Below, piece after piece: positions 7,582 to 30,484 of a stretch of DNA of 35,030 nucleotides. A program made the translations under genes and the position numbers. Every line of letters starts with the position of its first letter. Position 1 is the first letter of the stretch. Origin of the DNA: a virus; IMG/VR virus record IMGVR_UViG_3300027782_000195, positions 1 through 35,030 of that record; one strand, given 5' to 3'. The notes under the pieces are model-generated. The model was not told the DNA's origin. It made no database searches and saw only the letters and a list, made by a program, of their open reading frames with translations.

Positions 7582-7600
7582 ACCTAAGAAAAACAGTAAA

Positions 7601-7608
7601 GATAAATA
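7601..7608 (+). promoter_or_regulatory. Late-promoter-like GATAAATA before protein B
   Basis: GATAAATA differs by one base from the T4 late consensus TATAAATA. It lies in the 47-nt spacer after the stop of A and 20 nt before the ATG of B, with an AGAGGA ribosome-binding site at 7614-7619 between them. Spacing matches three other TAAATA sites in the window. Confidence 0.5.
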
Positions 7609-7628
7609 CTATCAGAGGATGATATAAA

Positions 7629-16600: not shown

Positions 16601-18197
16601 TGCAGCAAATAATACATGGGTCACAACTGTAAACAATCCATTGTTTGCTAGTGGAGTAACAACATGGAGTAGAATTAGATACGGGCAAGGGTTGTTTATT
16701 GCAATTGCAACGTCGAGTCAGGCGGTGGCAACAAGCCCAGACGGCGCAAATTGGACTTACTATGCAACCGGAATGCCAAGTTCAAGCAACTGGTTAGGTC
16801 TAACATTTGGTAATCCAATAAATGCTACATTAGGCCGAGTTCCTACATGGGTAAGTGTATCTAACACAAGCGGTAAAATTGCTACTAGAATTTCAACCGG
16901 AGCAACTGCACAAGGTCGTATAAAAGTAGTTAACAATCAAATTAGTGAAGTTAGAATGATTGAACCAGGAAGTGGATATCCGCGTGGTAATGTTACTACA
17001 ACAAGTAACACAAGTACTGGGACTATCACCGTTGATAATATTACAAACCTGTCAGCAAATCAGCCTATTTTGTTTAACGGAACAAATTCTGGAGGTATTG
17101 TTGTTGGAACATATTATTATGTTAAAGGAACACCCACATCGACATCAGGTCTAGCAGGAACAATACAAATATCTGCGTCAGCTGGCGGATCAATTGTTGC
17201 ACTAACAGCATCAACACCAACCGGTATGACATATTTTGCTAGTCCAATTATTACACAAACAGATCCTAACAAAGTTAATACAGCACCGTTAGTGGGACGT
17301 ATTGGAAATGGCGCATTAGGCAATCCAAGTTTTGGTAATCGTGGCACTGCTAATACAACTGCCACAGCAAGTTATGCAGGTGACGGATATGCTGATTTGT
17401 ATCAAACAGGCACGTATGTTAACGTAAGCGGACTATATCAAATTCCAACAGCAGGTTGTAATGTGGTGTTTAGTAGCATTACTGGAGCAAATCGCTGGTA
17501 CAAACTAGTGAGTGTGACCAACATAGCTGGAGTTGCTGGCAACTATACTGCTACATTCCAAGTTAATCCAGGAATATCAACATTGTTAGCACCTTCACAT
17601 AACGACTTGATCACAACAAACTTGTCATATAGTAACGTTCGTTTAACTGGACATGACTTCTTGTACATTGGTACTGGTGGATTTAGTGCAACAAACTATC
17701 CATATGTTGATGCTACTAAAGCAGTAGCATCTAGTCAAGAGCTATTTGTAGGAGGTGGACGAGTATTCTTTACAAGTACTGACCAAGACGGTAACTTTAA
17801 CGTTGGTAACTTGTTTGGAGTTCAACAGTCAACTGGTACTGCTACATTGAATGCTAGTGCGTTTAACTTGTCAGGACTACAGAGTTTGACACTTGGATCA
17901 GTAAGTTTAGGAGTTGGATCAGCTACAATTTACCAGTTTAGTACAGACCCGTACTTTACAGCTAACAGCGACGGTGTAGTACCTACACAGAAAGCTATTA
18001 AAGCGTTTATTACGGCGCAAATTGGTGGCGGACAAAGTTCATTGAACGTAAATACTATCACATCAGGACAGATATACATTGCTGGAAATACCATAAGCAA
18101 CACTAACAATGTACAAATCTACGTAAGTAGTAAGATGCTGTTCACAGGCGGAATAGACGGAGCACCAGTTGCTCTAGTGTATTTTGGCCAGAAATAA
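7629..18197 (+). CDS. Giant fibre-like virion protein B
   Basis: This 3522-residue protein is a paralogue of A. The ATG follows AGAGGA at a good distance. Order: seven CBM5/12-like repeats (about residues 11-617), a fibre collar motif (about 644-683, GDMVYYG...RLPIGTDGQIL), beta-helix entry (about 688-722), beta-helix part 1 (978-1013), an insert of about 1011 residues (1014-2024), beta-helix part 2 (2025-2192, GGRIRATNGNSSYGTYG), beta modules, a 7-blade propeller (about 2545-3094) interrupted in blade 2, and a C-terminal foot (about 3334-3522, GNFNVGNLFGVQQSTGTATL). RDA....DA..YDL..GGN helical segments recur inside the large insert. No signal peptide or catalytic motif is evident. Inferred role: a very long fibre or tail-associated adhesin. 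The shared C-terminus suggests that A and B attach or fold in the same way. Confidence 0.88.
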   Translation: MAEFKLGRIKFVYQGTWAQNRSYVVDDVVTNSGKTYICVISHTSTNTTVGFTTDSTGGAGITKWNLIADGTSWRNSWTATTYYNLGDMVLYGSVVYLCKTAHTSASSTASITATGLTVSSGTATLTYSTQAVQPFLVGATITLAGFSPASTSGSVNTVNTTFTVVTCTTTQLTFALTGTYSVVTLGTVSGTSQLGLEADQGKWDTFAASFNWLGAWNTGTRYKVRDLVYYGGSTYVCNNAHVSNTSASSGLEASSANWDTFNQGITYLGDWNASGLPGGTNIRYKLNDVVKFGADLWICTAYHTSSGTSIDTNSFSIFVNGFQFEGSWSASSEYQIGDVVTYGGYTYTAIQNNGSAVPKVPSTQPTYWKIFTSGVVYSGAWVTGTSYKIGNVVTLGSYSYIATADNSASQPPGLSTATFTGSISGTTLTNSSPTGTIAVGMTVTGGTVSAGTVIVSGSGTSWTVNNAQTVASAALTGTITFWSQLSSGIRWNSAPNTTYTNIASSNVSATGTGSPTFTVTRSGTTYSAVIGSTAGTGYTVNDTLKVLGNAIGGATPGNDLVVKVATITGGGGTGPIGTVTVLTGYAASWKTGITYVIGDAVYYGNSSYICISAHIGSAGVNDPITDNSTYWNILASGADSGALTTQGDMVYYGTNGPTRLPIGTDGQILRVNVNKPEWQYYGQLQNVVYVAPSGVDSSGSGQGITLDKPWASLLYACKQVEEGYLNTNAGLALTVNKQFMMKEVNNYILTTYSFNVTGTSSSGNTFIVGSTSTTSQVTTANMYYGMPITFSAATGGVSVGTVYYVNTIPTSVTFTVSSVYQSGQTLAISPSSATASTATFNYTQSKAERDTGTVIDGIIFDLTHGGNLYSTTATKAYFKTLTSFTSTGTTQQAPVFAGSLVYLKDTLFSAVMANSAPANNYQTIRSISTKAIQNTTTVTTSLIESGSLSTAQGLLSIITSALTAGTYGNSPQEARPHTTVYLKTGTYSEYGPIVVPQDTAIVGDELRSTIVQMSSAQINLYNDKPKTAVALQRVQSVLSNLIANSTVTPTTTGTTAPNTQTQIKVLPAGDTGNSSAINLVVDNTRLIQDMFAGGGVITGPTNSNYPNGLIHQPAISMPTVTGYNSSYLANYGDAVTLIQANYQFLKDEIVSFLNTDGNLTGSAQWSSYSATYQAETLRDLTFMLDAICYDLTYGCNNQSLITGSSYYSLNTAQLFAPYILGVTESLSRLSTVIGQVVQKTAVTRSTGNTTTQYVTGTAGSAAAAAFAQARIADIVYWINNGAPDTSSATFTGSITTTTLTVSGVSGTIKIGQLVTGGTVAAGTYITAGSGTSWTVSVSQSATATGSTLVITPLVSGSYALATTANKASYDAIQFRLSEIANDAQSWVTRFYQNESPILSLTNRDAGYVVSALAYDVLFGGNFQSIQCGRSYNRLVTSVVTLQTSLADSTYGVLGFIGERVKLIASSGAVAQTSAVIDEMVAQIYGQPTTVATFNGTITGTQLVVNGSVTGTIAIGMQLSGTGIANGTSVISGSGTTWLLNYNQSAASTTTSIISVTTSVTLNGNTYTNVLTAGTTSGFVPGLTITITGTTISNLVAGTYYIKQVLSSTQFTVSQTYLGTVFTINSTASGAMTAVVYGIYGGLGLTTNITASGTIIPVTTATTSTNLITVSSNAGMYVNMPIVFTGLPANITTTATTISSNAITLSSVAGVVVGQKVWFTGFTPQATTTQSSIVANQIYYVQGIVSSTITIAATLGGSAVTLTNATGLTLTATFNAAGGLVPGNIYWINSVTAGSYPAAGTTITVANRYKSGTAFVITNTVTGLSATATAGMPLNQGINDKNTNGTIQPWNNPTGSYGSASGYNNTLATIQGAEIIRANKSFLASEMVAYVLSQFTGAVTTTASGGTITCSGAHNLSVGDPIVFSGTSFDVNITIGTKYWVLTTPTTATFTMTITAPGTGTQATKTLLGASGSMTVSYYMSQTKCIRDAGQYLDALVYDLGLTGNYKSTRAIQIYLSAVTGATTNDLFHLRNGTGLRNMTVNGLTGALTLPNALGTRRPTAGSYSSLDAGFGPNDSAAWVSNRSPYTQNLTLFGSGCTGMKIDAALHSGGNKSIVANDYTTIISDGIGVWCTGSNALTELVSVFAYYSYAGYLAEYGGRIRATNGNSSYGTYGVIAEGIDSYETPIYGRLNNRANPAYITNVITDGTNQIYRLEFQNAGNAYTNALPTVSGAGYNIVAIQDEFRDSSVFETRLVDLNNGQGTGGSNYLTASNVAQTGAVGSITIANSDIQLSSAYVGMRIQLIAGTGVGQFANIIGYAQSNKFANIIRPSFATLTITTNNTTVFTVASTATMYVGQPIYMGASIGGLSVTGSAATAIYTPTVYYVSTTSFTSTTFRLATSAANAAGGTNITLTATSATPAVTVASIIVGTTLTVGTLSSGTIYPGMLLTGGSVLPNTFIVSQITGTTGSTGTYVVSVSQNLASTALTGTVNVSVYEAGWDHVVPGNSVQPLLDATSGYVIEPAISYSSPGFAATSITMTAAATTTWSSVAYGQGKFVAISNATGINSTATTADGTTWAAGGNLPTDVSSAWGRIVYGGGQNATATAIVGGVGGSGAVLSAVIGTGNTAGQIISITVISGGYNYVTPPTIVITDSAGSGATATARVLNGSIQAVDMVITGSLYSSPTITAVTSSLSSITATTWGSGYYATPIITITAPFTATGWSSGGAATSGAYYSAVDTTVSPNMTNYYLASASGTFSATKPTFTNVFYGKSGYGATGIGASVTYGVTLTYVGSLAVASANTNTNTAGYGVISYTVSQTGYGYTTTPTVTVTDPNAAFVAISQATASAAYSTDQGTTWSATGGTTGKTNLRSLAYGNNLYIAVGGTSSAVAVSLSGSPTGTWSDQSSNITANSSGYSYIAYGAGVFCAIGGTISSFTAADPTKWYAGATLPNKTWASITYGNGRFVALASDGTVCYTTNWQAGGWTTTPSYAANNTWVTTVNNPLFASGVTTWSRIRYGQGLFIAIATSSQAVATSPDGANWTYYATGMPSSSNWLGLTFGNPINATLGRVPTWVSVSNTSGKIATRISTGATAQGRIKVVNNQISEVRMIEPGSGYPRGNVTTTSNTSTGTITVDNITNLSANQPILFNGTNSGGIVVGTYYYVKGTPTSTSGLAGTIQISASAGGSIVALTASTPTGMTYFASPIITQTDPNKVNTAPLVGRIGNGALGNPSFGNRGTANTTATASYAGDGYADLYQTGTYVNVSGLYQIPTAGCNVVFSSITGANRWYKLVSVTNIAGVAGNYTATFQVNPGISTLLAPSHNDLITTNLSYSNVRLTGHDFLYIGTGGFSATNYPYVDATKAVASSQELFVGGGRVFFTSTDQDGNFNVGNLFGVQQSTGTATLNASAFNLSGLQSLTLGSVSLGVGSATIYQFSTDPYFTANSDGVVPTQKAIKAFITAQIGGGQSSLNVNTITSGQIYIAGNTISNTNNVQIYVSSKMLFTGGIDGAPVALVYFGQK
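7659..9480 (+). repeat. Seven CBM5/12-like repeats at the start of B
   Basis: Seven copies of G.W.....Y..(G/N)D(V/L)V.YGG..Y.C...H.S begin near 7659, 7840, 8256, 8421, 8592, 8750 and 9380. Examples are LGAWNTGTRYKVRDLVYYGG and FEGSWSASSEYQIGDVVTYG. The spacing Trp, Tyr, Asp-x-Val, Tyr resembles the chitin-binding type 3 (CBM5/12) fold. One module of the SGTSWTVNN type lies between copies 6 and 7. Paralogue G has a single copy at its N-terminus. Confidence 0.65.
10668..13700 (+). other. 1011-residue insert splitting the beta-helix of B
   Basis: The insert separates GDELRSTIVQM from LFHLRNGTGLRNM, which belong to the same beta-helix. It contains three helical segments (DLTFMLDAICYDLTYGCNN, AGYVVSALAYDVLFGGN, AGQYLDALVYDLGLTGN), two modules of the SGSGT(S/T)W type and several YY(I/V)..(I/V) beta modules. 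It looks built by repeated duplication of modules found elsewhere in A and B. Confidence 0.6.
15261..16910 (+). repeat. Seven-blade BNR-like propeller in protein B
   Basis: Blade starts near 15261 (WSSVAYGQGKFVAIS), 15396 (WGRIVYGGG), 16236 (LRSLAYGNNLYIAV), 16374 (YSYIAYGAGVFCAIG), 16491 (WASITYGNGRFVALA), 16665 (WSRIRYGQGLFIAIA) and 16791 (WLGLTFGN). Blade 2 is broken after its first strand and resumes at about 16134 (AAFVAISQATASAAYSTDQG). Confidence 0.65.
15429..16130 (+). other. Insert within propeller blade 2 of B
   Basis: About 234 residues interrupt blade 2 between YGGGQN and NAAFVAIS. The insert holds repeats of the type GY.Y.TPP.IVITD..GSGATATA, namely GGYNYVTPPTIVITDSAGSG, GSGYYATPIITITAP and GYGYTTTPTVTVTDP. 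The edges show a weak similarity (TCAAAATGCCACA and TCCAAATGCGGCA). Function unknown. Confidence 0.6.
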
Positions 18198-18595: not shown

Positions 18596-19687
18596 ATGGC
18601 ACGTTATAATACGGTAATATCATCAGCAACTGCGTCAACAACCGCAGCCTTTACATCTCCGGGAGCTGGAACATTTACAAAACTTACAGGGTCAAGCTAC
18701 ACTGTGACTATTGGAGATCCTATATTGTTTGCTGGGTTATCACAGACTTTTTATAATGCGGCCAGCGGAACTATCACATTGACATTTACTACAGGGGGTG
18801 GTGGTATATTTACTGGCCCAGGCGGCAGCGGCACAACAAGTCAAACTATGTCAACCGGTACTACTACCACGTTGTTTAGTGACGGTACAAACTGGGTAAC
18901 AATGGGAGCAGGTGGCGGCCCAATAACTGCAACAACTGGCGCATTTAGTGGACAGGTGTCAACAACTGGCGCAACTGGTTTTAATATTGTATCCAGTTCA
19001 ACAGACGACTCAACTAGTGACTTAACCGGCGCCGCAACATTTGCAGGCGGCGTAGCTGTTAATAAAAATATCACTATAGGTAAAGCAGGTAATACTGGTA
19101 GATTGCGTCTAATGGGTTCAACTAGTGGAACAGTTACTTTCCAAGCGGCAGCAACAACAACAGGCGGAACATATACATTTCCGGCAGCTGACGGAACTAA
19201 CGGTTATGCATTAACCACTAACGGTTCAGGAACACTAAGCTGGTCAGCAGTTGGTGCATCAATAAGCGATGATACCAGTACAAACGCAACATATTATCCT
19301 GCTATTCTAACAACAACAACTGGAAATGCCACAGCTCTTAAAACATCTAGCGGTAAATTTACATTTAATCCAAGTACAGGTTTATTAACTGTTACCGCAT
19401 TAACTGAAAGTTCAAGTATTACATTAAAAGAAAATGTTAATCCAATAGCTGGTGCATTAGAAGCTATTATGAGTTTAGTTGGTGTAACATATGATCGTCG
19501 AGACGGTTCAAGTAAAAACGAAGCAGGGCTAATTGCTGAAGAAGTAAACAAAATTATACCAAATATTGTCAGCAAGAATTCAAAAGGCGATCCAGATGGT
19601 ATTCACTACAGTAAACTAACTGCGTATCTTGTGGAAGCAATCAAATCATTAAAAGAAGAAATTAATGAATTAAAAGGTAAAAAATAA
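18596..19687 (+). CDS. Fibre protein with C-terminal S74 intramolecular chaperone
   Basis: This protein has 363 residues. The first roughly 270 are Thr/Ser/Gly-rich beta sequence typical of a trimeric fibre, including TTTGGTYTFPAADGTNGYAL and LSWSAVG, a fibre collar-like pattern. Residues about 271-363 match the chaperone-of-endosialidase (peptidase S74) domain: SITLKENVNPI, then VGVTYDRRDG, EAGLIAEEV and a long C-terminal helix ending KSLKEEINELKGKK. In this family the domain trimerises the fibre and usually cuts itself off at a serine at the domain start. Ser274, in the SITLK context, is the best candidate here. GAGAG at 18582-18587 is a modest ribosome-binding site. The last base of the stop is the first base of the next ATG (TAATG), so the two genes are probably translationally coupled. 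Confidence 0.85.
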   Translation: MARYNTVISSATASTTAAFTSPGAGTFTKLTGSSYTVTIGDPILFAGLSQTFYNAASGTITLTFTTGGGGIFTGPGGSGTTSQTMSTGTTTTLFSDGTNWVTMGAGGGPITATTGAFSGQVSTTGATGFNIVSSSTDDSTSDLTGAATFAGGVAVNKNITIGKAGNTGRLRLMGSTSGTVTFQAAATTTGGTYTFPAADGTNGYALTTNGSGTLSWSAVGASISDDTSTNATYYPAILTTTTGNATALKTSSGKFTFNPSTGLLTVTALTESSSITLKENVNPIAGALEAIMSLVGVTYDRRDGSSKNEAGLIAEEVNKIIPNIVSKNSKGDPDGIHYSKLTAYLVEAIKSLKEEINELKGKK

Positions 19688-22185
19688 TGGCGCAGTTAAC
19701 AAGTTTAACAGGTAACGATACTGGTAACTTAACTTTACCTACTGGTACGAATGCCAATCGTCCGTCGGCCCCAACTACAACCGTTGCTCAATTTACTACT
19801 ACTGGTGCCGCTACTTGGACATGTCCGGCAGGCGTTACCAATATTGAAGTGTTAGTTGTGGCTGGCGGCGGCGGCGGTGGCTCAGCAGCCGGTGGTGGTG
19901 GTGGTGGAGTTATTTACGATCCACGATACCCAGTAGTTCCAACAACTGTATACAATTTATCAGTGGGCGCCGGCGGCGCAGCCGCAACTACTAGTTCAAG
20001 TGGTGTGGCAGGCAGTAGCGGAACTAATTCAACATTTGATTTATTAACTGCTATAGGTGGCGGAGGAGGAGGTGCATATAATACTCCTAATAATGCTGGA
20101 CTAAGTGGCGGATCAGGTGGAGGCGGCGGATCAGTTGTGGGCGGCAATGCGGCAAATTTAGGCGGCGCAAGCACAGTTGGTCAAGGATGGAAAGGCGGCA
20201 ATGGCAACGCCAGCTCAAATCCGTGGGCAAGTGGTGGAGGTGGAGGCGCCGGCGGCGCTGGATACCCAGCAACATCAGGCGGATACGCTGGCAATGGCGG
20301 CCCTGGAATTATGTGCGACATTACTGGAACTGCCTTATACTGGGGTGGTGGCGGTGGTGGTGGCGCACAAGGAGGGCGTGACGGCACTGGCAACGCAGGT
20401 GCCGGTGGTGTTGGTGGCGGTGGTGGTGGTTGTGTAACTTATCAAACCGGCACTATACTCACTTTCTTTGGTGGTGCCGGTGCGTTAAATGCTGGCGGAA
20501 ACGGAAACGCAGTTGCAGGCGGCACAGGTGCTGCCGCTGGTGCAGGCGGAGCAAATACCGGTGGTGGTGGTGGTGGACAAGGAATCTCAGTTGGCGCATC
20601 AGGAGCTGGCGGTTCGGGTATTGTTGTTATTAGATACAATACTAATACAATACCAGTGGAAGGACAAGCACGTTTCAACACTGAAACCAAAATATTAGAA
20701 ACTACTATTTCAAATAAATTTCGACCAGTTTTATACGAGAACATTGTTAAGAATGGACTTGTAGTGCATTTAGATGCGGCATACTATGCTGGAACAGGAA
20801 CCAGTTGGCAGGATTTAAGTGGACGAGATAACCACGCAACTATCACAGGTAGTCCAGCATATAGTACTAACAACGGTGGATATTTTACGTTTAGCAACGG
20901 AACAAATCAGTACGCTTCAAACACAAATACATTCTCTGCACATGTTGGCGCAACATCGATGACCATTTGCGGGTGGGTAAGAGCTCCGGCATCAGTGGGC
21001 GATTCTTATGTTGCATCAGTAGGCCCGGCAACTACAGGATCAGCTCGTGGGTTACGCCAAGCAAGTCAAGCATTAAGTGCAGTAAGTTATGGCAGTGGAG
21101 GTTCGCAAGATTTTAATAGCGGCGGAGTCCTAGAACTCAACAAATGGGTTTACTTATGTGCAGTGTGGAATGGTCCATATGTTTCAATATTCATTAACGG
21201 ATACGAAGTTGCAAAAACAAATTTAACTGCTCCGGCCGCATTGACTGCTGGTAATTATACTATTGGAAATAACAGTTGGAGTCCCGGTGGTACGTATACC
21301 TGGGGCGGCGACATTGCCATGGCGTCAATATATACTAGACCATTAAGCACACAAGAAATACGTCAAAACTTCAATGCAACATCTGCTAGATTTGGTCTTT
21401 CAGAAGTGGCAGAAAGAGGATTTGGCTTAAATGCAGGACAGCTAGGCGGACAATGGCCAACTCCTGACTTACTATGGTACGATGCCAGTTTGCCCAAATG
21501 CTATCCGGGGTCGGGCACAACAGTTAACGACTTATCGGGTCGTGGCTACACTGGTTCAACAACCAACATAACTTTTGGAACTCAAACATTTCCAACTGAA
21601 AACGGACAAGTCAACACCAGCTACTGGATTTTTAACGGCACAAACTCAAGTATTAACCTTGGTGGCAATGCAAGCAGTCAGTTAGCATGGAGCCCGTCAG
21701 GATATATTAACAGTACACTAACAGCATTTACTATAGAAATGTGGGTGTATTCATATGATGTTAACAATGCATTCTTTTTTAGTAAACCATGGAACGGCAG
21801 CGGACAATATAATATTTGGATGACAGATTGGTCGTTTACCTGCAACGGAGGAAATCCATATGTTAGTTCTGGAGTTTCGGCTAACAATAATCCTAACTGG
21901 GGCTGGAATCATGTGGTGGGACATATAGACGGTACTACTATTGGTTATTATCTAAATGGTCAGGGCCGCAGTCAACAGCACGGTATGAAATTCTACCAAG
22001 ATCCACCAAGCGGAAATGCTGGCGTTCAACCAACATTGGGCAGTATCTACCCAGGTGGATCGTACGGTGACAACAGTTTACAGTTTAGGGGTTTTATTTC
22101 AACTTGTAAAATGTATTCAAGAGTTTTAACACCTGTGGAAATACAAAACTTATTTCAATCAACAAGAGCTAAATTCGGAGTCTAA
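19687..22185 (+). CDS. Glycine-rich adhesin with two LamG-like domains
   Basis: This 832-residue protein starts at the ATG overlapping the previous stop by one base. Residues about 38-316 form a glycine-rich domain: opening VTNIEVLVVAGGGGGG, alternating Gly tracts and variable loops, and closing GGSGIVVIRYN. A fibre collar motif follows (about 322-349, GQARFNTETKILE). Then come two LamG/concanavalin A-like domains. The first (about 355-575) contains VVHLDAAYYAGTGTSWQDLS and GDIAMASIYTRPLS. The second (about 593-832) contains LLWYDASLP, WNHVVGHIDGTTIGYYLNG and STCKMYSRVLTPVE. The Gly tracts recall the polyglycine-helix sandwich of T-even gp38-type adhesins, but I see no direct gp38 homology. 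Likely a receptor-binding or fibre-tip protein with glycan-binding side domains. Confidence 0.8.
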   Translation: MAQLTSLTGNDTGNLTLPTGTNANRPSAPTTTVAQFTTTGAATWTCPAGVTNIEVLVVAGGGGGGSAAGGGGGGVIYDPRYPVVPTTVYNLSVGAGGAAATTSSSGVAGSSGTNSTFDLLTAIGGGGGGAYNTPNNAGLSGGSGGGGGSVVGGNAANLGGASTVGQGWKGGNGNASSNPWASGGGGGAGGAGYPATSGGYAGNGGPGIMCDITGTALYWGGGGGGGAQGGRDGTGNAGAGGVGGGGGGCVTYQTGTILTFFGGAGALNAGGNGNAVAGGTGAAAGAGGANTGGGGGGQGISVGASGAGGSGIVVIRYNTNTIPVEGQARFNTETKILETTISNKFRPVLYENIVKNGLVVHLDAAYYAGTGTSWQDLSGRDNHATITGSPAYSTNNGGYFTFSNGTNQYASNTNTFSAHVGATSMTICGWVRAPASVGDSYVASVGPATTGSARGLRQASQALSAVSYGSGGSQDFNSGGVLELNKWVYLCAVWNGPYVSIFINGYEVAKTNLTAPAALTAGNYTIGNNSWSPGGTYTWGGDIAMASIYTRPLSTQEIRQNFNATSARFGLSEVAERGFGLNAGQLGGQWPTPDLLWYDASLPKCYPGSGTTVNDLSGRGYTGSTTNITFGTQTFPTENGQVNTSYWIFNGTNSSINLGGNASSQLAWSPSGYINSTLTAFTIEMWVYSYDVNNAFFFSKPWNGSGQYNIWMTDWSFTCNGGNPYVSSGVSANNNPNWGWNHVVGHIDGTTIGYYLNGQGRSQQHGMKFYQDPPSGNAGVQPTLGSIYPGGSYGDNSLQFRGFISTCKMYSRVLTPVEIQNLFQSTRAKFGV

Positions 22186-22191
22186 TTTTAA

Positions 22192-24102
22192 ATGGCAAAT
22201 TTAACGTCTACATACATAAGTCCAAATAGTTATGTTAAACTGCCTAAGGGCACAACAGCACAACGTCCTGGATCACCAGCGGCAGGCATGCTGAGATATA
22301 ACACTGACTTGCGATATACAGAGTTATACAACGGCAATTCATGGGTTCCGTTTCAGGCATCTAAAGCATTACCTAACTATGCAACTGTAACAACAAGTTC
22401 GGGAAATCACGTAGTTACACACTATCTAAATAATCGTATACACTCATTTTTATCAGGTTCGCATACGTTTGTACCAACTGTTACTGGATATGTAGAAGTA
22501 CTAGTAGTTGCTGGTGGTGGTGCAGGCGGATCTGCAGGCGGCGGCGGTGCTGGCGGCCTAGTTTATAACAACGCATTTCTAGTCACTGCGGGTGCCAGCT
22601 ACACAGTTACAGTTGGTGCAGGCGGACTTGGATTTACTAGCAGTACTGCTAATGTAGCATCAAACGACGGTAGCGCAAGCGTTTTTGGTTCAATTACTGC
22701 TGTAGGTGGTGGTGGTGGTGGTGCGTATGGCAGTGCCAACACAAACGGACGAGCCGGCGGATCTGGCGGCGGCGCTGGACACGATACTGGTGTAGCCACA
22801 ACCGGTGGTGCAGGAACATCTGGACAAGGATTTAGAGGCGGAAACAAGCCTACATTTTACGGAAATAATCCATATTGTGCAGCCGGCGGCGGCGGAGCTG
22901 GCGGAGCAGGACAAGATGTTGCAACAAACAATGCTGCCGGCGCAGGCGGCCCTGGATTACCTATATCGATATTAGGTATTCCATTATACTGGGCAGGTGG
23001 GGGCGGTGGAGGAGTTCAAGGTAATACTATTGCAGGTATTGGCGGAACTGGTGGATTAGGTGGCGGCGGCGCAGGCGGAAACTGGAACAGCGGCGGGAGC
23101 AACTGGAATCAATTTGGTCTTGGACTTCAAGGCGCACTAAATCCAGGCAAACACGGATCAAATGGTAGTGGTAGTGTCACTTGCCGCGGTGGTGATGCTG
23201 GACCAAACACAGGTGGCGGCGGCGGTGGCATGGGTATTAGTGTAGAAATTAGCGGAAATGGTGGCTCAGGAATTGTAGTTGTTCGTTATCCAAGTATAAC
23301 TCCAACTCCTATCATACAACAGTACACTTTTGACAATGCTGGTATTCAACGAACTTATTGGACAGCCCCAGCAGGTGTAAGCAATGTGGAAGTACTAGTA
23401 GTTGCTGGCGGTGGTGGTGGTGGCCGCTACGGAGGTGGTGGCGGTGCAGGAGGAGTTGTATATAATTCAAGTTATGCCGTTACTCCAGGAAGTTCGTATC
23501 AAATTCAAGTTGGCGCAGGCGGAAGCAGTTGGGCAGGCGATGCTCAAAGTGGCGGCAATGCTGGCACAGGTGGTGACAGTTGGTTTGATGTACTCAGAGC
23601 ATTCGGTGGTGGTGGTGGTGGAAACTACGGAAACAATGCTTGTTCAAATGGTGCTGGTGGTGGTTCGGGCGGCGGCGGTGGATGTAATAATGCATCAGGT
23701 TGTGCTGGCGGCGCAGGCACACAGATTCAAGGTAACTCAGGCAGTGCTGGTAGCGGCAGTGCATATCAAGGCGGTGGTGGCGGTGGAGCAGGACAAGCTG
23801 GCGGAACTAATGGCACAAGCAGAGGCGGCGATGGAGTAATGTATTCTATCACAGGACTTCCATTGTATTATGGTGGTGGTGGATCAGGCTGTAGCCTACA
23901 ATTATTACCAGGAGGTTTAGGTGGCGGCGGCTATGGTGCTAGAGAAAGTACCTATGCAAATGTGCCGTACTGTGATGCATTGCCAAACACTGGTGGAGGT
24001 GGAGGTGGCGGCCGAGATGCTCTTTTCTTTGGCACATGGCGCACAGGCGCCGGCGGATCTGGTGTAGTGATATTAAGATATTATCAAACAACTTCATACT
24101 AA
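22192..24102 (+). CDS. Glycine-rich adhesin with two glycine-rich domains
   Basis: This 636-residue protein starts at ATG 6 nt after the previous stop; GGAG at 22177-22180 lies inside the upstream gene. The N-terminus has a fibre collar motif (KGTTAQRPGSPAAGMLRYNT, then ELYNGNSWVPF). Two glycine-rich domains follow, at about residues 90-367 and 389-633. Each opens with VEVLVVAGGG and closes with SGIVVVRY or SGVVILRY. In between, runs of four to seven glycines alternate with variable loops containing aromatic residues and pairs of cysteines. Unlike its neighbours it has no LamG or carbohydrate-binding-like domain. Likely a distal adhesin. The two domains look like an internal duplication that has diverged mostly in the loops. 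Confidence 0.8.
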   Translation: MANLTSTYISPNSYVKLPKGTTAQRPGSPAAGMLRYNTDLRYTELYNGNSWVPFQASKALPNYATVTTSSGNHVVTHYLNNRIHSFLSGSHTFVPTVTGYVEVLVVAGGGAGGSAGGGGAGGLVYNNAFLVTAGASYTVTVGAGGLGFTSSTANVASNDGSASVFGSITAVGGGGGGAYGSANTNGRAGGSGGGAGHDTGVATTGGAGTSGQGFRGGNKPTFYGNNPYCAAGGGGAGGAGQDVATNNAAGAGGPGLPISILGIPLYWAGGGGGGVQGNTIAGIGGTGGLGGGGAGGNWNSGGSNWNQFGLGLQGALNPGKHGSNGSGSVTCRGGDAGPNTGGGGGGMGISVEISGNGGSGIVVVRYPSITPTPIIQQYTFDNAGIQRTYWTAPAGVSNVEVLVVAGGGGGGRYGGGGGAGGVVYNSSYAVTPGSSYQIQVGAGGSSWAGDAQSGGNAGTGGDSWFDVLRAFGGGGGGNYGNNACSNGAGGGSGGGGGCNNASGCAGGAGTQIQGNSGSAGSGSAYQGGGGGGAGQAGGTNGTSRGGDGVMYSITGLPLYYGGGGSGCSLQLLPGGLGGGGYGARESTYANVPYCDALPNTGGGGGGGRDALFFGTWRTGAGGSGVVILRYYQTTSY

Positions 24103-24117
24103 AATTGGAAATATAGA

Positions 24118-26472
24118 ATGGCAATCTTAAAAAATACAACAGTTACAGACAACGGCTATGTGACCTTTTCACAAGGCAATACAGCCAATAGACCTGCAAT
24201 CGTTACCACACGCATACAATGGTTAACTGGTGGTGCCACAGTTTTATGTGGCAATACACCAACATTGTCAAGTACAAGTTGGACTTGCCCGGCTGACGTT
24301 AACGAAATTGAAGTATTAGTAGTAGCAGGTGGCGGGGGTGGTGGATTTGAAATGGGAGGTGGCGGAGGAGCAGGCGGATTAATTTATAATAAAAACTTCA
24401 GCGTTACACCTAACACAATATATACAGTTACAGTTGGCGCTGGCGGAAGTGCAAGAACTAGTAACGGTGATAATACTAGCAATGCTGGTAACAGTGTATT
24501 TGGCTCATTAACTGCTATTGCTGGAGGCGCAGGTGGAAATAACTCTAACACATATGATGGCACAGCAACCGGCGGCCGCCCAACAAACGGTGGTTCGGGT
24601 GGTGGAACAGGAGAAGGCCAATCCGTTGCACCGGGAACTAATGGCCAAGGATATGCTGGCGGTGCCGCTATTGAAGCTGGATACTATCATTCAGGCGGTG
24701 GTGGAGGAGCAGGCGGTGGTGGAGGAGCAGGTAGTCCTTACTGCGCAGGCGGTGGCGGCCCTGGATTATTAATTGATATTTCAGGAACACCAACTTGGTA
24801 TGCGGGTGGTGGTGGTGGTGGAAGTTATAGCCCTTCATCAAGCGGAAGTTTTCGTCCAGGAGCTGGTGGATTAGGTGGTGGCGGAAATGCTAACACACAA
24901 GCCGCTGGTTCGGCTGGCACTAATGGAACAGGTGGCGGTGGAGGTGGCGGTAGTTACAGTCCTTCGTCGGCAGGTGGTGCAGGCGGGTCTGGTATTGTTA
25001 TTATCAAATATACACAAGCCGCAGACAGCACAGATCCAAGAGGAATAATACGTTTTAATACTGACGTTAAAGATATTGAGATCTACAACGGTCAAGCACA
25101 AGGTTGGGTATCACAAAATCCAATGAAAAACTTTGGCGGACATAACCTATTACCATACAGTCAAGACTGGTCAACATATACTGGTAACTATTTTAGCAAT
25201 TGGATTAACTCCACAGTGACCGCAGGACAACGCGACCCATTTGGAACCACAAATGCCGCTTTACTTACTGGATATTACGCAAGGCTTTCAACTACAGTAT
25301 CAGTAACACCTGGCAAAACATATACATTTAGCGTTTGGTTAAAAAATTCTGCGTTAGTAAATGCTGTAAATTTACATATAGTTAAAGGACTCAGCGGAGC
25401 TCAACAAGGCGACGTTTCTCTAACAGTTAGTGTGGCCAGTATAACCAACTGGACTAGATTTTCTCTATCTTACACAGTTCCGGCTAGTGGAGTTAATCAA
25501 ATACAATGCGGTGTAGGATTTGGTAGTTCTATGTCAGCATCTGCTACTGGATATTCAATGTTTGTATTTGGAGGACAGTTAGAAGAAGCTAGTGCGCCTG
25601 GACCATACACATATACCAACGGTGTTGCTAGCCCAGCTCCAACTAAACTAAATGGTTACCGAATTCATACTTATTCTACCGCGGGCATAAGTGGATTTAC
25701 TCCAGCAGTTACTGGATTTGTTGATGTGTTAGTTGTAGCTGGAGGCGGTGGTGGTGGCAGCGGATTTAACAAAAGTGCCGCTGGAGGCGGCGGTGGCGGC
25801 GGCGGAGTTGTACAAATACAGTCCATGGCTGTTGAAGGAGACAAACAATATACTGTTGTTGTTGGCGCAGGAGGAACTGGCGGAACCGCAGGTACATCGG
25901 GCGTAGCTGGAATGGGCCGAATGGGCGGGATGAGCCAGTTTGGAACTGTAACTGCTGTCGGCGGCGGCGGTGGTGGAAACTATTCAGATATAGGTGGAAT
26001 GTCAGGCGGATCAGGCGGCGGAGGTGGCGGCGCTGGCGGAAATCGAAGCGACGGCGGCTATCTCGGCGGTGCTGGTACACCTGGACAAGGTTACCCTGGT
26101 GGCAGGCACGATGGGTCAGGACAAAGTAACACAACTACCAGTTGTGGTGGTGGTGGCGGAGCAGGCGGCCCAGGAATGGACGGATCAGTTGGTGCGCGAG
26201 GCGGAAACGGCGGCCCAGGTTTCCCAAGTTTAATTGCTGGATCAATGACTTATTTTGGCGGCGGTGGTGGTGGTGGTGGCGCAACCACTAACGGTGGTGG
26301 TTACGGCGGTATTGGCGGCGGCGGCAATGCCGGACAGAGCCAAAACTCCGACGGTCTTCCAGGAACTAATGGGCTTGGTGGTGGTGGTGGTGGCGGAAGT
26401 TGTGACGTTGGATCAATTGCTGGTGGCACAGGCGGCTCAGGAATTGTCATAGTACGATACAGACACGAGTAA
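24118..26472 (+). CDS. Glycine-rich adhesin with central carbohydrate-binding-like domain
   Basis: This 784-residue protein starts at ATG with only a weak TGGAA before it. Order: N-terminal fibre motif (YVTFSQGNTANRPAI), glycine-rich domain 1 (about 55-298), collar motif (about 305-335, RGIIRFNTDVKDIEIYNG), a carbohydrate-binding-like domain (about 342-501) and glycine-rich domain 2 (about 525-782). The carbohydrate-binding-like domain contains NLLPYSQDWSTYTG, VTPGKTYTFSVWLKNS and FVFGGQLEEASAPGPYTYTNG, a pattern common in phage tail spikes and fibres. A related domain, interrupted by an insert, is present in A. Both glycine-rich domains end in SGIVI(I/V)(K/R)Y. It is last in the glycine-rich gene run. 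Likely a fibre-tip adhesin that engages cell-surface glycans. Confidence 0.8.
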   Translation: MAILKNTTVTDNGYVTFSQGNTANRPAIVTTRIQWLTGGATVLCGNTPTLSSTSWTCPADVNEIEVLVVAGGGGGGFEMGGGGGAGGLIYNKNFSVTPNTIYTVTVGAGGSARTSNGDNTSNAGNSVFGSLTAIAGGAGGNNSNTYDGTATGGRPTNGGSGGGTGEGQSVAPGTNGQGYAGGAAIEAGYYHSGGGGGAGGGGGAGSPYCAGGGGPGLLIDISGTPTWYAGGGGGGSYSPSSSGSFRPGAGGLGGGGNANTQAAGSAGTNGTGGGGGGGSYSPSSAGGAGGSGIVIIKYTQAADSTDPRGIIRFNTDVKDIEIYNGQAQGWVSQNPMKNFGGHNLLPYSQDWSTYTGNYFSNWINSTVTAGQRDPFGTTNAALLTGYYARLSTTVSVTPGKTYTFSVWLKNSALVNAVNLHIVKGLSGAQQGDVSLTVSVASITNWTRFSLSYTVPASGVNQIQCGVGFGSSMSASATGYSMFVFGGQLEEASAPGPYTYTNGVASPAPTKLNGYRIHTYSTAGISGFTPAVTGFVDVLVVAGGGGGGSGFNKSAAGGGGGGGGVVQIQSMAVEGDKQYTVVVGAGGTGGTAGTSGVAGMGRMGGMSQFGTVTAVGGGGGGNYSDIGGMSGGSGGGGGGAGGNRSDGGYLGGAGTPGQGYPGGRHDGSGQSNTTTSCGGGGGAGGPGMDGSVGARGGNGGPGFPSLIAGSMTYFGGGGGGGGATTNGGGYGGIGGGGNAGQSQNSDGLPGTNGLGGGGGGGSCDVGSIAGGTGGSGIVIVRYRHE

Positions 26473-26495: not shown

Positions 26496-26909
26496 ATGAA
26501 TACAGTTCCAATGGATTTGTTATTTGGAGTAGACGTAGCAATTAAAAAACTACGTCCTGGAGCAAATTTTCAATTAGAAGGATCCCGTATTACAATTTGG
26601 AATGATCCAGACGGTAGACCTGCACCTACTTGGGAAGAAATACAAGCTCAACTCGACTCTGACAAAAACCTTTATTACGACCACTTAGGCATTAAAGAAG
26701 ATGAGTATCCTATATTCGATGCACCAGTAGTGACAGGTGAGCCTCACGGTGGCGAGTTTGATGAAACTCCTGTCAGTAAACAACGAATGAATTTGTGCAA
26801 ACAATGCGATAGTTATATGCTTGGTATTAGAGTTTGTAAAGAATGTTCGTGCTTTATGCCAATAAAAACTTTACTAACTGATGCAGTTTGTCCATTGGGT
26901 AAATGGTAA
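26496..26909 (+). CDS. XkdW-like protein with C-terminal Cys-rich zinc finger
   Basis: This 137-residue protein starts at ATG 8 nt after AGGAG (26483-26487). The N-terminal half (DVAIKKLRPGANFQLEG, then WNDPDGRPAPTWEEIQAQL) resembles the XkdW-like segment often found beside phage tail-fibre genes. The C-terminus carries C101-x2-C104-x9-C114-x2-C117-x-C119-x12-C132, ending CPLGKW. This is a likely zinc-binding motif of a kind common in cyanophage-like genomes. Its place directly after the adhesins suggests a fibre assembly or structural accessory role, but this is inference. The next gene starts inside its stop region (7-nt overlap, ATGGTAA), so the two are probably co-translated. Confidence 0.7.
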   Translation: MNTVPMDLLFGVDVAIKKLRPGANFQLEGSRITIWNDPDGRPAPTWEEIQAQLDSDKNLYYDHLGIKEDEYPIFDAPVVTGEPHGGEFDETPVSKQRMNLCKQCDSYMLGIRVCKECSCFMPIKTLLTDAVCPLGKW

Positions 26910-27307
26910 ATTTAACTAAATTTTACCATCCAAATATTTCATCATTTACATTTTGCAATCCGCTTGATCTCAAATTAACCAGCTGGATTGTAGAATGTCT
27001 AAACACATACGCTAGACAAAATAAAATAACAGAACCGTTAACAATAACTCAACTGTGGCTAAACGAAGATGTTATAGGACAGATGCCGCATAGTCATAAC
27101 GGAAATTTTCTTATTGGATGCCTTTATTTTACTTTAGGTAGCAATATATATTTTATTGAAAATAATGAAGAAACTGACTGCTTTATAGAACCTGGTATGT
27201 TATTGTTATTTCCAGGAGGTACTATGCATGGAACTAGACCTCACACAGAAACTTATATTAGAAGATCAGTGGCATTCAACGTTAATAAAAGCTGTACCAA
27301 CCAGTAA
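26903..27307 (+). CDS. Short 2OG-Fe(II) oxygenase-like protein
   Basis: This 134-residue protein overlaps the upstream gene by 7 nt. Residues 50-77 (QLWLNEDVIGQMPHSHNGNF, then LIGCLYFT) and 96-127 (EPGMLLLFPGGTMHGTRPH, then RRSVAFNV) match the C-terminal core of the putative 2OG-Fe(II) oxygenase family also seen at 27951-28562. His63/His65 and His109 are candidate iron ligands, and Arg120/Arg121 candidate 2-oxoglutarate contacts. It is about 70 residues shorter than the neighbouring copy because most of the N-terminal region is missing, so it may be a minimal or degenerate form. The substrate is unknown. Its 3' end overlaps the convergent gene by 26 nt (27282-27307), so no separate terminator fits between them. 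Confidence 0.65.
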   Translation: MVNLTKFYHPNISSFTFCNPLDLKLTSWIVECLNTYARQNKITEPLTITQLWLNEDVIGQMPHSHNGNFLIGCLYFTLGSNIYFIENNEETDCFIEPGMLLLFPGGTMHGTRPHTETYIRRSVAFNVNKSCTNQ

Positions 27308-27890
27308 TAATAAACTTTTCTTCAGTAGCACTGGGCAATCCTCGATGTGTATAGGTCCAGTCACTAGGCCAGTATAGTGTAAGACCTTTTTGAGGTTTAA
27401 CTTTAATTTTTTGATGTAAAAATTCAGTTTCCCCTCCGTCCGCAACATCATTCAAATAGGTCATAAAGGCTAAATGTCTATTGTTAGCAGGCGTATTTGA
27501 TGTCCCACGCTCAGTATGCCATTGATGGTAAGCTCCACTTGGCATATATTTTTGTATATTAATTCCTTCAACTATTCCCCAGCGTTGATATACATCACAC
27601 ATTGGAAATTTATTTACATACATTTGTGTAACTTTTTGAAGTTGTATCGCCGCATATTCTTTAAACAAATTGGTATCTTGTTCAAGTTTACAATCAAATG
27701 AATCTTTGACAGACTTGTCTAAAATTCCTTCAGGATGTTCAATAGTATAAGATTGGCCGCGCTCAACATGTTTGCTATTAGCATGATAGTTGATAATCTT
27801 ATCGCATATAGACATATCTTCCAAAAACCACCCCCCAATAAAGTTTTCAGTAGAAGATTCAATAATACATTCTTTGAGCATAGAAGCCAT
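27282..27890 (-). CDS. Prolyl-4-hydroxylase-like 2OG-Fe(II) oxygenase
   Basis: This 202-residue protein is on the minus strand. The double-stranded beta-helix core carries His125-Thr-Glu127 (YHQWHTERG), then HLAFMTYLNDVADGGETEF, His182 (THRG) and Lys192 (EEKFIITGW). The metal triad would therefore be HxE...H rather than the classical HxD...H; I recall the same variation in related marine-phage proteins. Lys192 is the likely 2-oxoglutarate anchor. The family hydroxylates protein side chains, commonly proline, but the substrate here is unknown. AAGGG lies about 10 nt before the ATG on the minus strand. The gene diverges from the 27951 oxygenase across a 60-nt spacer and converges on the preceding one. 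Confidence 0.8.
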   Translation of the reverse strand: MASMLKECIIESSTENFIGGWFLEDMSICDKIINYHANSKHVERGQSYTIEHPEGILDKSVKDSFDCKLEQDTNLFKEYAAIQLQKVTQMYVNKFPMCDVYQRWGIVEGINIQKYMPSGAYHQWHTERGTSNTPANNRHLAFMTYLNDVADGGETEFLHQKIKVKPQKGLTLYWPSDWTYTHRGLPSATEEKFIITGWYSFY

Positions 27891-27901
27891 ATCGCGCCGA
27901 C

Positions 27902-27943
27902 CCTTGTTAGTTTAAGTATATATAATATTAACTTTAAACAAGG
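27902..27943. promoter_or_regulatory. Inverted repeat in a divergent promoter region
   Basis: CCTTGTT (27902-27908) and AACAAGG (27937-27943) are perfect inverted copies. Their inner flanks GTTTAAG and CTTTAAAC also nearly pair. The AT-rich centre holds TATAAT (27921-27926). The outer arms supply the AAGG ribosome-binding site for both divergent oxygenase genes, which may explain part of the symmetry. It could be a bidirectional promoter/operator or simply two mirrored Shine-Dalgarno sites. Confidence 0.4.
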
Positions 27944-27950
27944 TATAATT

Positions 27951-28562
27951 ATGATACATCATCTGTTCCCAACTCTCGTATATACAGGCTCAAATTTAGA
28001 TATTTTAGAAACCAGCAAAGCTATTTTTGATAAATGTCCAGAACTCCAGCCATGTTCTGAAAAATTTTCAACTACTTTGATAGAATATTCTCCAGGCACT
28101 TGTTTAGTCAGTTGGGATTTTTCAAAAGAATTAGAAACTCAACCGTTGTTAGATTTTATCAATGTATCTGTAAAAGAATACATGGAACAAATGCAAATTA
28201 TTCCAGAGTCATATCAGGTAGAAATTCCTAACATATGGTTAAATGATATGGAATCTGGAGGATATCATAGACCGCACAATCATTATGGTTATACATTCAG
28301 TGGAACTTACTATATTGATTGTCCAGCAGACTCAGGTAAGATTTTATTCCACAATATAACTGAAGATTGGTTTTTTCAAAAGTTAAAAAGTGTAAAAGAA
28401 TGGACTACTGGGAACTCAGCAACTTGGTGGATCCCAGTTGCGGCAGGAACTATTATTTTATTTCCTAGCTATTTGAAACATAGTGTGCCGCCCGCAATAT
28501 ATGAAGGCACTCGTAGATCTATTGCGTTTGATGTGGTTATGAAACCAATTTCATTAAATTAA
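27951..28562 (+). CDS. Putative 2OG-Fe(II) oxygenase
   Basis: This 203-residue protein has its start at 27951, not at the in-frame ATG at 27735, because the longer form would run antisense through the divergent oxygenase gene and AAGG lies 7 nt before this ATG. Motifs: IPNIWLNDMESGGYHRPHNH (His106, His109, His111), YTFSGTYYID, then PVAAGTIILFPSYLKHSVPP (His177) and RRSIAFDV (Arg188/Arg189). These match the putative 2OG-Fe(II) oxygenase family frequent in T4-like marine phages, with HxH and a distal His as metal-ligand candidates. The N-terminus (HHLFPTLVYTGS) is also typical. It overlaps the convergent NUDIX gene by 9 nt. The substrate is unknown. Confidence 0.8.
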   Translation: MIHHLFPTLVYTGSNLDILETSKAIFDKCPELQPCSEKFSTTLIEYSPGTCLVSWDFSKELETQPLLDFINVSVKEYMEQMQIIPESYQVEIPNIWLNDMESGGYHRPHNHYGYTFSGTYYIDCPADSGKILFHNITEDWFFQKLKSVKEWTTGNSATWWIPVAAGTIILFPSYLKHSVPPAIYEGTRRSIAFDVVMKPISLN

Positions 28563-29003
28563 ATCAACTAGATCAAACACTGTTTGCAGTTTAGTACGAA
28601 TAATTTTACTACTAAAACTATTGCGCAGTCCTTGATGCAATGGCTTAGGCGCACGATCAATAGTGGCCCACGCCCATCCTTGATGCTCATCACTTAATAC
28701 TGGAACAAATTCCGTGTCAATTACACACAAGTATGTGTGAAAATTAAACACACGATCATTACTGACAAATGTTTCAAGAGGAATTGTTTTTAGTATAGTA
28801 GGAAGTACACTTATTTCTTCAGAGATTTCACGTTGTAATCCCTGCCAAGGTGTTTCGCCAGTGATGTTTGTGCCACCGACTAAGCCCCAAGTACCTTCGT
28901 GTTTGCCGTGTGCTTTTTGTAATAGTAAAAATCGTCGTGTGGACTTGGCATAAAATAATGCACCACTACAAACTATAGATTCTTTTATAACACTATTTTC
29001 CAA
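28554..29003 (-). CDS. NUDIX hydrolase
   Basis: This 149-residue protein carries a full NUDIX box at residues 44-66: G-x5-E-x7-REISEE (GTNITGETPWQGLQREISEE), with the usual final Gly replaced by Ser65. Before it come LLLQKAHGKHEGTWGLVGG, typical of MutT-like members. Enzymes of this family cleave nucleoside diphosphates linked to another moiety, such as (d)NTPs, ADP-ribose, dinucleotide polyphosphates or RNA caps. The substrate cannot be read from the motif. The start overlaps the end of the upstream gp15-like gene by 19 nt on the same strand, so it is probably the third gene of the minus-strand gp14-gp15 transcript. T4 also encodes a NUDIX enzyme, NudE, but orthology is not shown. Confidence 0.85.
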   Translation of the reverse strand: MENSVIKESIVCSGALFYAKSTRRFLLLQKAHGKHEGTWGLVGGTNITGETPWQGLQREISEEISVLPTILKTIPLETFVSNDRVFNFHTYLCVIDTEFVPVLSDEHQGWAWATIDRAPKPLHQGLRNSFSSKIIRTKLQTVFDLVDLI

Positions 29004-30484
29004 TTAGCAGCCTCGTATACACCTTCGAATGACTTGACCCATGAAACACCGTTCCACAAGTATTGTATTCCAGTATATATATTCGTCTGCCATACCATAG
29101 TGTCTGAGTTCTGACTAGCGTTAAAAATCACAGTCCAGCGTAGTCCAGTCCATTCAATGATATCGTTTGCGTGTGCAACAAAGTCTGCGCCTGTAGTACT
29201 TTGCCATGCAGTAGGGCCTTTTCCAGCTGCATTTAGTGTGCTACCAATGTCTTCGATAATAAGAAAACGTCTACCCGCAACTACTAGTTGATCAGTTGCT
29301 TCTTTGTTGGGTTTTTTAGGATCGTATTGCTGTGGATCTATAATAGCATCAAAAGTACCTGGACTATTTGGTCTGTAACAAGACTGTAAATTATACCCAG
29401 CTACATTATCTAAAATTCCCGCACTGTCAATACCGGTGTTGGTGGTAAGTGTATCCACGTTCCACTTAACTTGTAAAATCGTTTCATCTAAACTATTAAT
29501 GGCAAAGGTGCCCACAATTAGTGTGCCGTTTGGTTGCGTTAAATATAGCTGGCTTGACCCGGCTTTATATTTGTTAGGAGTTCTAGCAAACAACTCATTC
29601 CAGTTGATAGGAGTGCCCAGTCTTACAGGAATATCTAAAGAACTTCCACGCTCAACAACACTTTCATGTGCTCCAATTAGTATAGCTTGTCCGTTATACA
29701 CTTCTAATCTATAGTTTTCATCTGACCCAATTACAAGTCCTAGCAAATCTGACATGGATGTTGTAGTGGCAATTGGATCTTGACCTAATCCGTCAATATA
29801 AGTTCCGCTAGTTGTGCTGGTATTGTACATACTGGTAACAATTTTAGTAATAACACCAAGATGTTTGACCTTAACTGGCGGATTAATCCATATAGGTGTG
29901 TCCAGTGTAAGGGTAGCAATATCAATAGGAGTATCTGTACCCACAGGAACTGTACGGCTATCCCAACTGATGTCATTTAAATTCAATACCGTTAAACTGG
30001 TCCAGTCAACATAGTTGTCTGTGGTTTGTAATTCTAAACTGGGGTTAAACAACACTAGAATTTGTTCAAGCATTTGTAATTTTTGATCTGTGTTAGCACT
30101 CCAGATATCGCACTTCATGGTTAGTTTAAAAGGAGTTGGCATTAATCTTTCAATTGTGTAATTTCTGCCTTGACCTGTTGTGTAACGATTAGTATCTGGA
30201 TCTATATCACGTTCACGAATGTTAACAGTTCCTACAAATGTCTGGTCACTTAGCCTGTCACGATCCATGGCCAAGCCAGTGATATAAACGCTGATTCTAG
30301 GAACACTATTAACTTTGTTCTCACTGTTGTTACGAATAATACTGGCAACTTGTCTGTCAGCATCTCCATACATAACTGGAACACGTACCAGTGTTCCATC
30401 GCCGTATTTGACCACAAAGTTACTCAGCGCACGAATTGTCTGCGTGATGTATCGTCTTATTTGCCCGTCATAAAAAAATTCCAT
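28985..30484 (-). CDS. 15: Tail sheath stabiliser/terminator, T4 gp15-like
   Basis: This 499-residue protein is recognisable as T4 gp15-like over its first roughly 240 residues: FFYDGQIRRYITQTIRALSN, then RVPVMYGD, VPRISVYI, PTPFKLTMKCDIWSANTDQ, MLEQILVLFNPSLEL and TPIWINPPVKVK. In T4 gp15 the equivalent stretches read FYNSSFRRYATL, RVPITY, PSPIKMIYELSIFTR, VEQILPYFQPHF and WMYPP. gp15 forms the ring that caps the tail tube and sheath and binds the neck. T4 gp15 is about 270 residues, so the C-terminal 230 or so here are extra. That extension includes QLVVAGRRFLIIEDIGS and ends in WLWNGVSWVKSF-like fibre motifs (YLWNGVSWVKSFEGVYEA). The start overlaps the gp14 stop by one base (TAATG). Confidence 0.85.
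   Translation of the reverse strand: MEFFYDGQIRRYITQTIRALSNFVVKYGDGTLVRVPVMYGDADRQVASIIRNNSENKVNSVPRISVYITGLAMDRDRLSDQTFVGTVNIRERDIDPDTNRYTTGQGRNYTIERLMPTPFKLTMKCDIWSANTDQKLQMLEQILVLFNPSLELQTTDNYVDWTSLTVLNLNDISWDSRTVPVGTDTPIDIATLTLDTPIWINPPVKVKHLGVITKIVTSMYNTSTTSGTYIDGLGQDPIATTTSMSDLLGLVIGSDENYRLEVYNGQAILIGAHESVVERGSSLDIPVRLGTPINWNELFARTPNKYKAGSSQLYLTQPNGTLIVGTFAINSLDETILQVKWNVDTLTTNTGIDSAGILDNVAGYNLQSCYRPNSPGTFDAIIDPQQYDPKKPNKEATDQLVVAGRRFLIIEDIGSTLNAAGKGPTAWQSTTGADFVAHANDIIEWTGLRWTVIFNASQNSDTMVWQTNIYTGIQYLWNGVSWVKSFEGVYEAANWKIVL

Follow-up and report, generated by a model that had tools for sequence, protein, structure and literature searches.

Several described receptor-binding systems bear on the locus reported here, and phages of this kind are believed to alter which host cells they recognise by means of a rigid, conserved glycine core with variable surface loops. 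In the tail fibre gp24 of cyanophage Pam3 (PDB 7YFW and 7YPX), TNF-like strands are combined with a bundle of glycine-rich loops in one domain, which is carried on an alpha-helical shaft and served by a separate chaperone, gp25. For a Klebsiella phage with a Pam3-like fibre, infection of an LPS mutant was regained with a fibre protein carrying two substitutions in its glycine-rich domain (PMC12671077). The gp38 adhesins of T-even phages and of S16 (PF05268; PDB 6F45) follow the same principle, in which glycine tracts bear hypervariable loops for the receptor (PMC12892980), and their gene stands after an S74-bearing fibre gene. In the hafunavirus study (PMC8651126), a glycine-rich tail-fibre adhesin gene lying in a hypervariable region is given as the key determinant of host range; the protein AAL55001.2 of the haloarchaeal virus HF2 is probably the adhesin in question. 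The glycine-rich region of the ALK/LTK receptors (PDB 7MZY and 7LIR) is likewise joined to a TNF-like domain, in the ectodomain of an animal receptor kinase with a signalling role.

The window analysed here comprises 35,030 nt of DNA, positions 1 to 35,030 of the viral record IMGVR_UViG_3300027782_000195 (IMG/VR). Its consecutive adhesin genes A, B and C, separated by gaps of only 6 and 15 nt, carry domains of an adhesin family that is already known, arranged with unusual richness: where Pam3 has one domain on its shaft, the window has five glycine-rich domains (GRDs) in three proteins, together with lectin-like partners. No gp25-like gene was recognised beside A, B and C using Pfam and PHROG. 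The parts of the locus are as follows, in window coordinates.

18596-19687, + strand: tail-fibre gene whose product closes with a Peptidase_S74 domain, a chaperone of the endosialidase type (Pfam PF13884, E 2e-10), immediately 5' of the adhesin genes
19687-22185, + strand: adhesin gene A, 832 aa; a single GRD interrupts the N-terminal fibre module, and Laminin_G_3 (ConA-like) stretches come after
19687-19764, + strand: N-terminal fibre module of A, first half (...LPTGTNANRP)
19739, no strand: last base of continuous similarity to the closest relative (contig L126), with collapse downstream
19768-20637, + strand: glycine-rich domain A1 (Pfam and motif)
20662-20700, + strand: N-terminal module of A, second half (GQARFNTETKILE), past the inserted GRD (sequence)
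20899-21360, + strand: Laminin_G_3 domain of A, the better of two stretches (Pfam PF13385, E 2e-31, aa 405-558)
22192-24102, + strand: adhesin gene B, 636 aa; N-terminal module intact, then a tandem pair of GRDs
22192-22344, + strand: N-terminal fibre module of B, intact (LPKGTTAQRPGSPAAGMLRYNTDLRYTELYNGNSW)
22417-23289, + strand: glycine-rich domain B1 (modelled, mean pLDDT 91.1, pTM 0.91)
23311-24081, + strand: glycine-rich domain B2 (Pfam and motif)
24118-26472, + strand: adhesin gene C, 784 aa; GRD-split module, CBM-like stretch and a second, C-terminal GRD
24118-24195, + strand: N-terminal module of C, first half (...SQGNTANRP)
24232-25011, + strand: glycine-rich domain C1 (modelled jointly with the N-terminal module; mean pLDDT 89.4, pTM 0.87)
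25042-25107, + strand: N-terminal module of C, second half (GIIRFNTDVKDIEIYNGQAQGW)
25279-25494, + strand: weak CBM_4_9-like stretch of C, between its two GRDs (E 6e-4, aa 388-459; 20.6 bits, below the Pfam cut-off of 25.9)
25645-26460, + strand: glycine-rich domain C2 (Pfam and motif)

The five glycine-rich domains and family PF21722

An earlier note, made from the letters of this DNA, had pointed to five glycine-rich domains in three consecutive adhesin-like genes, and all five were located. Each is 257-291 aa long, counting 25 residues ahead of the VEVLVV strand, and 33-41% glycine. The shared opening and closing motifs described in the note recur in every domain as (I/V)(E/D)VLVVAGGG and GGSG(I/V)V(I/V)(I/V/L)(R/K)Y, the latter widened to take in GGSGVVILRY, with which B2 closes. 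Proteins A, B and C score 67.3, 152.5 and 137.2 bits against the Pfam family PF21722 (Gly_rich_2; cut-off 24.3), and the family is matched at E<=0.01 by 66 of 66 aligned domains, that is, the window's five and 61 from outside it. A1, B2, C1 and C2 share 47-50% identity with B1 in the five-row alignment. Judged by sequence, the homology is clear and the five domains are members of this known family, from which they do not differ as domains. The top PHROG match of all three proteins, PHROG 2295, is listed as of unknown function, and we found no literature on PF21722 in phages.

When viral contigs were searched with protein B alone, no relatives were returned; the five-domain alignment as query gave three among viral contigs and none among genome contigs. 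These weak yields are due to back-translated glycine patterns that are too degenerate; a DNA pattern for VEVLVVAGGGGG succeeded in their place. The richest array of GRDs that we found lies on another contig (L145, 11542-18348), in two consecutive proteins with four GRD matches each, the last of them cut.

Predicted fold and structural neighbours

AF2 was supplied with an alignment of the five window domains and the 61 outside domains, and the models made were of monomers. The structure prediction, which the earlier note had proposed as a check, yielded a confident fold whose best matches are adhesin or receptor folds with glycine tracts. VEVLVV and the closing GIVVVRY fall among the strands in the model of B1, and the glycine tracts in the models of B1 and C1 are confidently placed and mostly neither helix nor strand. 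In a Foldseek search of the PDB with B1, Pam3 gp24 ranked first (E 1.2e-5, probability 1.00, TM-score 0.41/0.47), followed by the Bxb1 tail tip and then by the GRDs of ALK/LTK (E 4e-3 and 5e-3), whose weaker match in fold has no counterpart by sequence profile. C1 with its N-terminal module retrieved the same groups, with Pam3 gp24 again on top (E 6e-5, probability 1.00). TM-scores are modest throughout, at 0.35-0.47 for the top Pam3 matches and 0.28-0.47 across solved folds. The best PDB profile match is also Pam3, if weak (E 0.07, and 0.02 with the family profile). An envelope protein that has glycine-rich stretches also came up in a PDB profile search and was dismissed as spurious, and phmmer with protein A gave no PDB match. 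By these models the domains come closest, among solved folds, to Pam3 gp24, which is TNF-like with a glycine-rich part, and not to the gp38 sandwich; the terminal strand of gp24, GIIIVQY, also resembles the GIVIVRY of the window domains.

A total of 235 viral predicted structures match the B1 model at E<=0.001, mostly under the name 'Glycine-rich domain-containing protein', which is all that most PF21722-like domains, common in viral proteins, are called. This large and mostly unassigned family gains a testable function from its ties to the fold of Pam3, to what is probably a host-range adhesin in archaeal viruses and to the loop-focused variation of cultured isolates.

A hypervariable locus with a fixed insertion point

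In many contigs GRD genes again stand behind an S74-bearing fibre gene. How many genes there are, and how many GRDs each encodes, varies from contig to contig, and the companion domains vary between relatives, including Laminin_G_3, fibrinogen-like and SPRY stretches. The closest relative, L126, has 79% nucleotide identity to the window across 9.6 kb, ending at 19739, some 50 nt into gene A. A second relative, L130, has 78% identity up to 18949 and a further similar stretch up to 19724. At the protein level, the two products encoded just upstream of A are 87% and 82% identical to those of L126 (the latter being the product of 18596-19687, whose PHROG matches are tail fibre/baseplate) and a downstream NUDIX protein is 89% identical, whereas A, B and C reach only 33-41% over all alignment columns; the locus is thus hypervariable. 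Its right edge is not clean, because a downstream gene is divergent too: the tail-sheath-stabiliser-like protein at 28985-30484 (- strand) has 34% identity to its L126 counterpart, next to the NUDIX protein at 89%.

The N-terminal module has the form MAxL...LPxGTTAQRPxxPxxGxxRYNTxxxxxExYxGxxW. Among the fetched loci, 34 proteins have it whole, and in about ten, A and C of the window included, a GRD interrupts it between RP and G..RYN. In gene B the module is intact in the window and in L126, and it contains a GRD in two other relatives (L134 and L136). From these sequences, the pattern looks like the gain or loss of a whole GRD at one site in a module that presumably serves as the virion anchor.

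The tree of GRDs is mostly unresolved, with 3 of 23 inner branches supported, and it was used only for pairs at the same position and for one cluster in L130, in which three GRDs from three different genes (9490-16916) group together. That cluster could reflect recent duplication or homogenisation within one genome. Four contigs (L004, L131, L132 and L141) end inside GRDs, which may reflect strain variation; these ends were left out as evidence because the loci had been picked for carrying GRDs.

Variation in tracts and loops

The earlier note had asked whether variation is concentrated in the loops, and it is, both among distant relatives and among cyanophage isolates. Over the 66 sequences, the lengths of the glycine tracts are near-constant, and those of loops span, for instance, 5-32, 14-38 or 10-57 aa. 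With classes taken from B1 alone and variation scored in the 61 outside sequences, entropy is 1.32 bits in tracts, 1.93 in strands and 2.43 in loops; part of this tract/loop contrast would be expected wherever a core is rich in glycine. When the classes were shifted circularly, none of 267 shifts reached the observed difference between loops and tracts.

Variation within one species was followed in the cyanophage S-RIM14. In it, as in its close kin S-ShM2 and S-SSM2, fibre genes precede a single GRD gene, in surroundings like those of the window. The S-RIM14/S-ShM2 protein (Ahtivirus sagseatwo) resembles those of the window in joining the N-terminal module to a GRD and has loops that are hypervariable among isolates; it differs in being the single GRD gene of its genome and in having an unsplit module. 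The set comprised 11 isolates of one species (L178-L185 and L188-L190), compared over only 12.7 kb: 12,668 aligned nt of equal length, of which 111 vary. Among the 11 genes compared, variation is highest in the GRD gene, at 35 sites/kb vs 2.8-13.9 in its ten neighbours. As many as 24 variable sites lie in one 123-nt block (codons 231-271) that spans two loops, and other 123-nt windows contain at most 11. The block occurs as two main haplotypes, of which isolate Np_11_1211 is a mosaic, and there are four-gamete failures inside the gene, which indicate recombination or recurrent mutation. Among eight isolates, 10 of the 13 nonsynonymous sites of the domain lie outside the glycine-rich stretches (hypergeometric p 0.023), and 9 of 15 synonymous sites lie inside them. 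The raised synonymous variation in the block fits import of a divergent segment and points to recombination, without demonstrating selection. The S-RIM14 isolates are in culture, and how the two loop haplotypes in one gene relate to the Synechococcus strains adsorbed is a testable question.

A second cluster, of 11 variable sites, lies at about 7012-7134 of the same locus in these isolates, in a neighbouring fibrinogen/COLFI-like gene that is perhaps another receptor-binding protein.

Proposed function and alternatives

We consider it likely, with a probability of roughly 0.8, that the GRDs of A, B and C are loop-presenting, host-binding adhesin modules of family PF21722 that are diversified at two levels. 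Each GRD would form a small TNF-like beta sandwich whose strands extend into packed, extended glycine tracts bearing non-conserved loops. Proteins A, B and C, as tail-fibre proteins encoded behind the S74-chaperone fibre gene, would present several such GRDs along with lectin-like domains, and the loops would bind molecules of the host surface. At one level, whole modules, genes and companion domains would be replaced, gained or lost at the locus; at the other, recombination would swap short blocks of one or two loops. The role of a loop-presenting adhesin is well supported by relatives; for the window phage itself, a position at the tail tip, the binding of surface glycans or proteins and an effect of the variation on host range are all probable by analogy. 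One such close relative is HF2 AAL55001.2, which the GRD profile matches end to end (142 bits) and which has the same start and end motifs; it differs as the single, short adhesin of an archaeal virus.

More tentatively, the locus might serve a lineage of jumbo phages as a cassette that diversifies adhesins at two levels. GRDs would then be gained, lost or replaced at a fixed acceptor point, which lies after ...RP and before G..RYNT...W in the small module for fibre attachment. Inside each GRD, short blocks with one or two loops would recombine, so that each virion carries several GRDs (five here, more in relatives) and may address several receptors at once.

What the domains are could be read in two other ways. 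The earlier note had likened them to gp38 without clear homology. The likeness held for the conserved glycine core with variable loops; as to homology and fold, membership of PF21722 is clear and the nearest fold is that of Pam3 gp24. True kinship with the T-even polyglycine-II sandwich (PF05268) would fit this common logic of tracts and hypervariable loops, as well as the gene order of S16, in which an S74-bearing gene (gp37) is followed by a glycine-rich one (gp38), as 18596-19687 is by A. However, hhalign gave a probability of only 0.5% for our 66-row profile vs S16 gp38, which belongs to PF05268/PF21721 and not to PF21722; the window proteins have no PF05268 match, PDB profile searches returned no gp38 chain, and a gp38 structure is absent both from the complete list of 43 fold matches of C1 and from the best 50 of 130 for B1. 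Membership of the gp38 family is therefore largely refuted, and such kinship seems very improbable. Alternatively, the GRDs could be passive spacers or stalks that hold lectin-like domains off the fibre while their loops drift neutrally. A and C could indeed bind through the Laminin_G_3 and CBM-like parts, and the number of domains differs between relatives, yet past its module B has nothing recognisable to Pfam except GRDs, and the HF2 protein is almost entirely GRD. The several-fold excess of cyanophage variation over neighbouring genes, placed in loops, and the altered infection caused by residue changes in a Pam3-like GRD (PMC12671077) also argue against mere spacing, which we regard as unlikely.

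As to the source of loop diversity, the earlier note had supposed long GGT/GGC similarity between the copies, open to slippage or recombination, and on both counts the DNA speaks against it. Exact identity between any two domains extends over no more than 17-20 nt, only slightly above synonymous-codon shuffles (12 shuffles), and such tandem repeats as occur are tiny. The range of loops across relatives, from 1 to 57 aa, would suit strand slippage at such repeats or conversion among the five copies, but all 11 cyanophage isolates are equal in length over the region compared and differ by substitutions only, with no indels. A contig nearly identical to the window (L004, 26242-32012) has three substitutions and zero indels, its overlap with C2 being unchanged. 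Slippage or conversion thus has little chance of being the source. A diversity-generating retroelement could account for hypervariability localised in an adhesin, as in the cyanophage isolates, but the substitutions in the block show no adenine specificity, many of them are synonymous, and no reverse transcriptase was found among the window proteins searched (the contig is partial); we give this origin almost no credence.

Surroundings of the adhesin genes

The window probably comes from a jumbo-type contractile phage from an aquatic source. The jumbo-type assignment rests on the relatives of its neck protein (31984-32769), the closest counterparts of which are in the jumbo phages Phosso, Atu_ph07 and PA5oct (40-45% identity), and on contigs as long as 245 kb (L127) that hold related fibre genes. 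Scans for promoters (20 found vs 14.8 expected) and terminators (8 found vs 8.1 expected) across the window were uninformative. Three 2OG-Fe(II) oxygenase-like genes adjoin the adhesin genes on the 3' side, at 26903-27307 (+ strand, PF13759), 27282-27890 (- strand, PF13640) and 27735-28562 (+ strand, PF13759), and no such ORF was seen at the corresponding place in L126. Toward the ends of the window (1-18197 and 33399-35030) lie giant ORFs of at least 2526 and 3522 aa, plus a third cut by the window end. All three have fibre-like sequence in common, for example PW.(T/S)(I/L).YAC, and the first also has a Laminin_G_3 stretch.
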